Origin: Candidatus Vesicomyosocius sp. SY067_SCS001
GTDB taxonomy: Bacteria > Pseudomonadota > Gammaproteobacteria > PS1 > Pseudothioglobaceae
NCBI RefSeq assembly: GCF_014706615.1
Contig: NZ_CP054877.1
Span: 744,001 to 808,000 of the forward strand
Length of the DNA stretch: 64,000 bases
Direction: 5' to 3'
The notes below the pieces were generated by a model. That model was not told the DNA's origin. It ran no database searches and saw only the letters and a list, made by a program, of their open reading frames with translations. Shown here piece by piece: positions 10,281 to 13,779 of this stretch; the stretch's first letter is position 1; every line of letters begins with the position of its first letter. Both the position numbers and the translations under genes were made by a program.

Positions 10281-12833
10281 ATGAATTTTGATAAACTAAC
10301 TGCACAATTCCAACAAGACTTAGGTACTGCACAATCCATTGCTATTACAAAAAATCACAGCGCCTTAGAAGCGGTACATATTCTAAGTAGCATGTTACAA
10401 AATACTAATAGCGATGCTAGTAATTTATTATCAAACATTGATATCCATCAACTTAAACAAGAAACAGATAAAGAAATTAACACACTAGCTACGATCAGTA
10501 ATCCAACTGGTAATGTTAATATTTCTCAGAACTTATTACGACTATTAAATCAGATGGAAAAATTAGCTTTCAATAAAGAAGATTCCTATACATCAACTGA
10601 GATATTTTTATTAGTCATCATAAAAGGCAATGATATAACTACAAAACTTCTAAAAGCACATGGTGTAAATGAGATTAGTTTAAATCAAGCAATTGACAAC
10701 CTTAGAGGAGGTAAAAACGTGAATAATCAAAACGCAGAAAATAACCGGAACACGCTAAATAAATACACTCAAGATTTAACTCAATTAGCTATTGATGGTA
10801 AGCTTGACCCTGTGATTGGTCGTGATAGTGAAATTCGTCGTGCCATTCAAGTATTACAACGACGAACTAAAAATAATCCAGTTTTAATTGGCGAACCTGG
10901 TGTGGGTAAAACTGCTATTGTTGAAGGTTTAGCACAACGTATTATTAACCATGAAGTATCAGAAGGTATCAAAGGCAAGCGTGTTTTATCGCTAGACATG
11001 ACAGCACTGATAGCAGGTGCTAAATATAGAGGTGAATTTGAAGAGCGACTAAAAATCGTACTTAAAGAATTAGAAGACAAACAAGGTCAAATCATTTTAT
11101 TTATTGATGAATTACACACCATGGTTGGTATTGGCAAATCCGATGGATCTATGGATGCTGGGAATATATTAAAACCTGCTTTAGCTCGTGGTGATCTACA
11201 CTGTATAGGTGCTACTACACTAGATGAATATCGACAATATATTGAAAAAGATTCTGCTTTAGAACGTCGTTTCCAAAAAATATTAGTAGACGAACCAACT
11301 GAACAAGACACTATTGCTATTTTGCGCGGGCTTAAGGAAAAATACGAAGTTCATCATGGTGTAGAAATCACAGATCCTGCTATTATTGTTGCTGTAACTT
11401 ATTCAACCAGATATATTACTGACAGACAATTACCAGATAAAGCCATTGATTTAATTGATGAAGCAGCCTCACAAATCCGCATGGAAATTGATTCAAAACC
11501 AGAATCAATGGATAAACTTGACCGTAAATTAGTGCAACTTAAAATTGAACGCATGGCACTCAAAAAAGAAAAAGACAAAGCTTCTAAAACACGATTAGAA
11601 GAATTAGTGAAATTAATTAAATCACTAGAAAAAGAGTACGCTAATTTAGAAAAAATTTGGAAAAAAGAAAAGCTAGTAGTCCAAAGTGCACACCATCTTA
11701 AAGAAGAACTAGAACAAGCAAAATCCGATTTAGAAAATGCACATCGTAACAATAATTTAGCCAAAATGAGTGAACTTCAATACGGAATTATTCCTGAATT
11801 AGAACAGAAAATTAACATGGCTGAAAATACTGAAACAGAAAAAATGACATTACTTAGAAATAAAGTCACTGAAGATGAAATTGCCCATATTGTTGCCCGT
11901 TGGACAGGTATTCCTGTGGATAAAATGATGACAGGTGAAAAAGATAAGTTACTACAGATGGAAACTATTATTCACAAACGCCTAGTTGGTCAAGATAAAG
12001 CTGTTAAAGTTATTTCAAATGCTGTACGTCGTGCGCGAAGTGGCCTATCTGACCCTAACCGTCCTGATGGTTCGTTTCTATTTATGGGTCCTACTGGTGT
12101 GGGAAAAACTGAACTTACCAAAGCCTTAGCAGACTTCTTATTTGATACCGAGAAAGCTATTGTACGCATTGATATGAGCGAATTTATGGAAAAACACTCA
12201 GTTGCACGTTTGATTGGCGCACCTCCAGGCTATGTTGGTTATGAACAAGGTGGTGTATTAACTGAGGCTGTGCGTCGCAAGCCTTATTCAATTATTTTAC
12301 TTGATGAAATCGAAAAAGCCCATTCAGATTTATTTAATATTTTACTACAAGTACTAGATGATGGTCGACTAACGGATAGTCAAGGTCGAACAGTTGATTT
12401 TAAAAATACTATTATAATAATGACTTCAAACCTAGGTTCTCACTTAATTCAACAAAACCTAGGAAAAGATATATCCGTTGAACTTACTAAAATTGTTAGT
12501 GAGCACTTCAGACCTGAGTTTATCAATCGCATTGATGAAATCATAACCTTTAAACCACTAGAAAAATCTCAAATCAAAGGTATTGCACTCAGACAAATTG
12601 AGATCTTATCATCACGTTTATCCAAACTTAATCTTAGAATAACATTAAGCGATATAGCCATAAGTTTGATTGTTAACAAAGGCTATAACCCTGTGTTTGG
12701 CGCCAGACCCCTTAAACGTACCATACAACAATTATTAGAAAACCCTTTGTCAAAAAAAATCCTTGCTGGAGAATTTTTATCAGACTCAACCATTCATGGA
12801 GATGTTAAAGATGGAAAAATCGTTTTCTATTAA
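10281..12833 (+). CDS. clpB: ATP-dependent disaggregase ClpB
   Basis: Hexameric chaperone that pulls proteins out of aggregates together with DnaK. Order: N-terminal Clp domain (1-145), first AAA+ module with Walker A GEPGVGKT (204-211), a coiled-coil middle domain (about 405-525) rich in Lys/Glu, second AAA+ module with Walker A GPTGVGKT (603-610) and the arginine-rich sensor region [10 protein letters not shown] near the end. The middle domain marks it as ClpB rather than ClpA or ClpC. 850 residues is normal. Confidence 0.97.
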
Positions 12834-13137
12834 TCTATTTTTATATAATCAAACCCTGCTGCTACTAAATCGATTTTGTATTACAATACAACAGGAACTA
12901 CTAATTCTCTCAAAAATGTAATATTTTTATAAAAATAGTATTTTATAGCAGATAAAAACAACCATTTTCCCATATTTTAAACCAACAATACTCTAGAACT
13001 AAATTATCACAAAAAATACTTTCTAAAAACAGATTTGTCTATGTATTGTATATCCTTAATAAGGATATACAATACATAGACAAATAAAAACCTTATTGCT
13101 AGAAAATTGATATTTAATTAAGTATATAATAAATATT
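12834..13137. other. Non-coding gap clpB-rnfE
   Basis: 304 bases. The only clear structure is the 53-base palindrome at 13033-13085. No gene remnant was recognised. Confidence 0.6.
13033..13085. repeat. Perfect 26-bp inverted repeat with a one-base centre
   Basis: Bases 13033-13058 are the exact reverse complement of 13060-13085, with A13059 at the centre. It starts ATTTGTCTATG and the middle reads TATCCTTAATAAGGATA. It lies 52 bases before rnfE and 199 bases after clpB. There is no clean T-run directly after either arm, so a normal intrinsic terminator is doubtful; a regulator-binding site or a cruciform is possible. Confidence 0.9.
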
Positions 13138-13779
13138 ATGGATAACTATAATAAAATTATAAAAAATGGGTTGTGGGATAACAATCAAGCCTTAGTTGCT
13201 ATTTTAGGTCTATGTCCCTTATTAGCAGTTACCAATAATATTGTTAATGCAATCGGACTTGGTCTGGCAACTACATTTGTTTTAGTAATGTCTAATGTAA
13301 CTGTTTCTATTTTTCGTAATCATATTTCAAAAGAAGTTCGTATTCCTATTTTTATCCTATTAATTGCTTCATTTGTAACAATTGTTGAATTAATGATGAA
13401 GTCATATTTTTATGATTTGTATTTGATATTAGGTATTTTTGTACCTCTAATTGTAACTAACTGCGCTATTTTAGGGCGTGCTGAGGCATTTGCCAGCAAG
13501 AACACTTGGGATAAGTCTATACTAGATGGATTAATGATGGGTATTGGTTTCTCTGTTGTACTTATTATATTAGGTGCAATGCGTGAATTAATTGGTAATG
13601 GTACTTTATTTGATCAATCTGTATTAATACTAGGTGATTTTGGTAATACACTTAGTATTACTGTGTTTAAAAATTATCAAGGCACTTTATTAGCTATTCT
13701 ACCACCAGGAGCATTTATTGGTTTAGGACTTATTGTAGCAATGAAAAATAAATACGACTTGGAAAGAAAAAAATTATAA
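13138..13779 (+). CDS. rnfE: Electron transport complex subunit RnfE (RsxE)
   Basis: Integral membrane subunit of the Rnf complex, which couples ferredoxin-NAD electron transfer to ion movement or, as Rsx, keeps SoxR reduced. The 213-residue protein has about six hydrophobic helices and family motifs [40 protein letters not shown] and [15 protein letters not shown], which match RnfE more closely than NqrD. No other rnf gene is adjacent, and nth, a common neighbour, is absent, so it is an orphan here. A very large palindrome sits just upstream. Confidence 0.92.

Follow-up and report, generated by a model that had tools for sequence, protein, structure and literature searches.

A Perfect Palindrome between clpB and rnfE

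Why does a palindrome of 53 bp, free of mismatches, stand between clpB and rnfE in the genome of a vesicomyid-clam symbiont: is it a site maintained by selection, or the trace of a mutational event in DNA that no longer serves any purpose? The locus lies in the window, by which we mean the whole stretch of 64,000 bases that was analysed; the genome, hereafter G000, comprises 1,032,764 bases in one contig, and its close relatives are likewise symbionts of vesicomyid clams. A sequence-only reading had described a "near-perfect" palindrome of 53 bases. The repeat is real, with two arms of 26 nt that are 100% complementary around one central base, but the qualifier can be dropped, for the palindrome is perfect apart from its centre at 13059. 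The elements of the locus, in window coordinates, are the following:

10281–12833, + strand: clpB, the upstream neighbour, an open reading frame with ClpB_D2-small and AAA domains that ends 199 nt before the palindrome
12956–13062, + strand: remnant of a decayed XRE/HTH_3 regulator gene holding the left arm, recognized by its similarity to the copy in relative G009
13033–13058, + strand: left arm, inherited sequence homologous to the middle part of an XRE-family helix-turn-helix gene
13059, no strand: central base, left unpaired when the arms pair
13060–13085, + strand: right arm, complementary to the left arm at all 26 positions and probably a templated copy of it
13125–13130, + strand: TATAAT, probable −10 element of rnfE, assigned by conservation and located downstream of the palindrome
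13138–13779, + strand: gene for an rnfE-like Rnf-Nqr membrane subunit (PF02508, E 3.7e-65), the downstream neighbour, which we take to be rnfE and not rnfA

Folded as RNA, positions 13025–13095 reach −34.2 kcal/mol, whereas 200 shuffles average −5.74 (SD 2.1; z −13.55). The palindrome had been said to go far beyond the other hairpins of the window, and it does: it is the longest perfect inverted repeat there, the next having arms of 15 nt. If bases were independent, about 1.5e-7 repeats with arms of at least 26 nt and loops of 0–20 would be expected per 1.03 Mb. In the 464,000 bases of G000 that were sampled (the window together with 20 further 20-kb stretches), we counted 59 perfect inverted repeats whose arms measure 12 nt or more and whose loops do not exceed 20, among them 17 with arms of at least 16 nt and 7 with at least 20 nt, the maximum being 32; comparable arms outside the window measure 32, 25, 21, 21, 20, and 20 nt. 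In three order-3 Markov sequences, each as long as this sample, the longest arms were 13, 12, and 12 nt. Thus, the palindrome is not a product of chance, yet it is one of several in this genome.

The arm sequence occurs at one site in the whole of G000. The sequence-only reading had proposed a search of the genome and its relatives, and had tied the case for a selected function to conservation in the closest of them. When a 22-base core was searched with up to 3 mismatches in 40 genomes, that is, our own and 39 relatives, it was matched in two, G000 itself and G005, the latter with 3 mismatches, unpaired and elsewhere in the genome; a palindrome of the same sequence was found in 0 of the 39 relatives, which goes against a selected function. 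At the aligned locus, G008 is the sole close relative to have kept the spacer, and only a short hairpin is present there. G005 and G001 retain clpB, rnfE, and the TATAAT but have lost the spacer, and are therefore uninformative on the age of the palindrome.

One Inherited Arm and One Probable Copy

The origin of the arms can be approached through the more distant spacers, since those of G009, G011, and G003 contain a helix-turn-helix gene or the remains of one. The G011 copy, the only one shown to be open, is a 68-amino-acid stretch with an HTH_3 match (2.7e-13) and a start codon that is not established. In G000, positions 12956–13062, which span the left arm, match the G009 copy by BLAST at 74% over 109 nt (E 6e-17, with 12 short sequences searched), and carry stops in all three + frames. 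In the spacers of G009 and G011 (L041 and L044) a second XRE-like stretch follows the first, at 68% (G009) and 64% (G011) DNA identity to the first copy of G009; judged from sequence, these stretches suggest two regulator genes, or what is left of them, arranged in tandem.

Compared without gaps, the left arm is identical to its counterpart at 20 of 26 positions in G009, 18 in G003, 16 in G011, and 19 in G008 (21 with gaps), against a maximum of 17 in 5,000 shuffles, all drawn from the G009 segment. The right arm, set against the 26 nt that follow in each relative, scores 9/26 in G009, 12/26 in G003, 8/26 in G011, and 8/26 in G008, approximately the level of the shuffles (mean 9.0, maximum 16 for G009). 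By these ungapped identities one arm is inherited and the other is a reverse-complement copy that is not, as a template switch would leave them. Gapped identities of the right arm are higher, at 15, 18, 12, and 18 of 26 (G009, G003, G011, and G008), so that in such AT-rich DNA its first bases are possibly inherited in part; the right arm may be a templated copy whose first ~10 nt belong to an older seed.

A candidate for such a seed is seen in G008, where the sequence at the same centre, TATATTCCTTATTAAGAATATA, forms a perfect 7-bp hairpin with an 8-nt loop, or by eye a hairpin of about 10 bp with one bulged base; the automatic alignment cut clipped this site in G008 and counted a hairpin of 3 bp. 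A template switch at a quasipalindrome would be expected to leave such a footprint: an inherited arm, then its exact reverse complement, and in a relative a short imperfect inverted repeat that shares the centre. On the 3′ side of the right arm, AAATAAAAA is similar to the end of the XRE gene as found in G011 and G003, which in AT-rich DNA is weak evidence for the point where synthesis rejoined the template. The missing 3′ part of the gene would follow from a return to the template further on, or from a separate deletion.

We therefore favor, with a probability of roughly 85%, a reading of the palindrome as the scar of a template switch (quasipalindrome correction) in dead DNA, carrying no selected function whatever its age. 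A decaying XRE-type gene between clpB and rnfE would have contained a short imperfect inverted repeat, such as that of G008, at which the polymerase stalled during replication; the nascent strand would have folded back, or moved to the sister strand, and copied the left arm as its reverse complement over about 16–26 nt before synthesis rejoined the normal template further along. The remainder of the dead gene would have been lost at the switch or in a separate deletion, and the outcome would be a perfect palindrome of 53 bp. Its persistence can be understood from the functionless state of the region and from the evident tolerance of such repeats in this genome. From the comparison of genomes we infer the steps at the fork, the relative timing of switch and deletion, the age of the event, and the absence of selection. 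The process has long been known, and the palindrome is a new instance of it. It had been argued that palindromes of this size tend to be lost unless they are selected or very recent: with none found in 39 relatives and a right arm that is not inherited, the recent or mutational branch is the better one.

How recent the event was is a separate matter. The left arm stands 6 edits from G008, whereas the two arms of G000 differ by 0, which requires either a young event or arms that have been homogenized. The latter is the substance of an alternative that partly overlaps with the favored explanation: the palindrome would predate the split of G000 and G008, would have been kept perfect by repeated switching, and would later have been cut down in G008, whose short hairpin may be a shortened palindrome instead of a seed. 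About 11 nt of G008 do resemble the inner part of the right arm, at the same centre, and 27 of 67 shared palindromes elsewhere (cases that are not independent) keep their pairing with both arms changed. On the other hand, the sequence of G008 beyond the centre can plausibly be derived from the XRE gene (by eye, TTAAGAATATA against CTAGAATGCA of G003), so that no earlier palindrome is needed. We regard this greater age as rather unlikely, while keeping it in view.

Less Likely Readings: Regulator, Terminator, or Mobile Element

The position of the palindrome invites other explanations, foremost that selection maintains it as an operator or regulatory hairpin of rnfE, or as a 3′ structure of clpB. 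The distance of 52 bases from the palindrome to the rnfE ATG at 13138, as given in the sequence-only reading, is correct, and both this proximity and the high stability of the stem (the −34.2 kcal/mol above) would suit a regulator. The probable −10 element, however, does not coincide with it. By eye, AAGTATATAAT precedes rnfE in 9 of the 9 relatives inspected (of 11 retrieved), including two that have no spacer, and the palindrome, which had been thought possibly to lie across the promoter, is instead upstream of the TATAAT at 13125–13130. The assignment of this element is based on conservation, since a promoter scan called no site on the + strand; if the transcript of rnfE begins there, the palindrome is outside it. 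Moreover, G005 and G001 keep clpB and rnfE without any spacer, and the hairpin reaches the gathering score of no Rfam family. With no counterpart in the 39 relatives either, nothing here has the profile of a conserved cis-regulatory or RNA element, and we give this explanation very little credence. Rfam did return 17 weak matches (E up to 1), below gathering scores and all to microRNA families, of a kind that any long AT-rich hairpin may give. The end of the TATAAT is 7 bases from the rnfE ATG, and the spacing is similarly short in the relatives inspected, which suggests a leaderless message or a true start further downstream. As for the description of rnfE as an orphan, it is apt inasmuch as G000 has a second PF02508 gene at 154034–154591, and the two Rnf-Nqr genes occupy separate places in 12 of 12 genus genomes, our own included; this separation is therefore an old state.

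An intrinsic terminator, serving clpB on the + strand or a transcript of the − strand, is very improbable. A terminator scan made 2 overlapping calls with the tail AATCTGTTTT, against a shuffled mean of 0.1, but both are on the − strand, and no − strand open reading frame of at least 60 amino acids lies between 13086 and 16244. On the + strand, that of the upstream gene, the stem is followed by AAAAACC and not by a T-run, in keeping with the doubt about simple termination already voiced on that ground; relatives that retain clpB and rnfE also do without the structure. We attach almost no weight to a mobile element of palindromic type, such as a REP or a MITE, or to an assembly artefact, even though a perfect palindrome standing in isolation might evoke either. 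A dispersed repeat would have several copies, whereas this sequence stands alone in the genome, where a search allowing 3 mismatches in 22 bases yielded no second site. The left arm, besides, is inherited sequence, and similar palindromes recur in the separate genomes of the relatives.

Other Palindromes in Vesicomyosocius Genomes

The template-switch reading gains from what is seen at other sites. From sampled parts of G000, G008, G005, and G001 we assembled a comparison set of 121 palindromes with arms of at least 13 nt. Aligned pieces were cut automatically, so that some sites, the present one included, are clipped. For 97 of the 121, a comparison was possible with two or all three of the other genomes, and the 24 with fewer than two relatives aligned were set aside; the palindrome upstream of rnfE is among these 24, because only G008 aligns there. 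The 97 comprise 67 shared, 28 lineage-specific, and 2 intermediate cases, where lineage-specific means that the best hairpin of the relatives is at least 5 nt shorter, a class that includes extensions such as the repeat with 32-nt arms. This repeat, a perfect one at L093:17858–17922 in G000 (near 667,900), exceeds the palindrome upstream of rnfE, and its hairpin has 22-, 21-, and 7-nt versions in G008, G005, and G001, respectively.

To satisfy our rule for one-arm rewrites, a palindrome, set against at least one relative, had to have one arm with no more than 1 change and a second arm with 3 or more. The rule, which has no chance control, is satisfied by 10 of the 28 lineage-specific palindromes and failed by 18, and for 3 of the 10 it holds against two or more relatives (L138:13644 of G005, L120:927, and L131:6049). 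These one-arm rewrites support template switching, short of proof, given that the choice of perfect palindromes itself favors complementary changes. The cleanest of them, at L138:13644–13683 in G005, is a perfect 19-bp stem inside an open frame (a label that denotes at least 100 codons from stop to stop, not gene annotation): its left arm carries 6, 7, and 6 changes versus G000, G008, and G001, and its right arm 0. From the aligned letters, it reads as the clear mark of a template switch in DNA that is likely coding. Because one ancestral palindrome enters the count again for each genome that has it, the 67 shared cases are not independent; the 27 of them in which both arms have changed and still pair fit either selection or repeated switching.

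The load of long repeats varies among the genomes. Against the 17 repeats with arms of at least 16 nt in 464 kb of G000, there are 18 in G005, 9 in G001, 6 in G008, and 5 in G003 (400 kb each), and 1 each in G004 and G012 (200 kb sampled in each). The GC content rises from 31% to 37% along roughly the same line, and for this reason we do not claim the loss of recA as the cause of the palindrome load.

Known Systems and Repair-Gene Background

In quasipalindrome mutagenesis, as outlined in the pertinent sections of PMC7202029, the polymerase templates on the nascent strand and an inverted repeat becomes perfect or more perfect. The palindrome described here resembles the Escherichia coli mutations treated in those sections (the thyA hotspot and lacZ reporters) in that the nascent strand would serve as template to perfect an imperfect repeat; it differs from them in being deduced from genome comparison and not from a reversion assay, and in the length of the new arm, 16–26 nt, with the rest of a dead gene lost. 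Template switches can also create perfect stems in one event, according to the corresponding parts of PMC8794818, where, as here, a reverse-complement copy yields a perfect stem and the footprints are recognized from related sequences. The hairpins dealt with there belong to RNA genes, whereas ours sits in a pseudogene spacer of a bacterial symbiont and gives no sign of a functional RNA. A further likeness is found with the palindromes in mitochondrial coding sequences of Nematomorpha, where, according to the relevant portion of PMC6649704, perfect inverted repeats are numerous and have been both gained and lost; they are located in genes of the mitochondrion and extend to 284 bp, in contrast to longest sampled arms of 32 nt here, and template switching is named by the authors as one possible mechanism. 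The highest frequency of inverted repeats is attributed to Buchnera aphidicola in the part of PMC10434271 concerned. A literature search for palindrome and vesicomyosocius together gave no match.

By the reading adopted here, this striking palindrome is a likely footprint of mutation rather than a regulator, and the contrast of an inherited arm with a copied one offers a comparative route to template-switch events in symbiont genomes. If the genome-wide palindrome load turns out to be higher than in free-living relatives matched for base composition, these symbionts would provide a natural test of how the loss of recombination genes bears on switch mutation.

Loss of recA in symbionts of vesicomyid clams has been reported (PMC3202245, whose main text contains neither "palindrom" nor "inverted"), and our own search agrees: recA has no match in G000, G001, G005, and G008, and is present as a broken stretch in G003, while 7 of the 12 genus genomes have a recA match that passes the cut-off. 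SbcD is over the cut-off in 0 of the 12, with weak matches in G000, G001, G005, and G008. Both results are in keeping with a template-switch origin, although base composition is confounded with gene loss. We tentatively suggest, as a possibility on the doubtful side of even, that the symbionts of vesicomyid clams are in a palindrome-making regime, in which, with recA lost and no SbcD over the cut-off, switching would repeatedly make and repair long perfect inverted repeats and rewrite parts of genes and dead spacers alike, a notable driver of change during genome reduction.

ExoI and RecJ domains are found in all 12 genus genomes, and ExoVII in 11 of 12, being in pieces in G009. Loss of ExoI, RecJ, or ExoVII was considered as a cause and rejected, as the genes are present in G000. 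G008 has no match to xseA (the ExoVII large subunit), which G000, G001, and G005 possess. Of the four Vesicomyosocius samples, that of this genome, without an ExoVII match, is the poorest in palindromes whose arms reach 16 nt, the opposite of a simple expectation.
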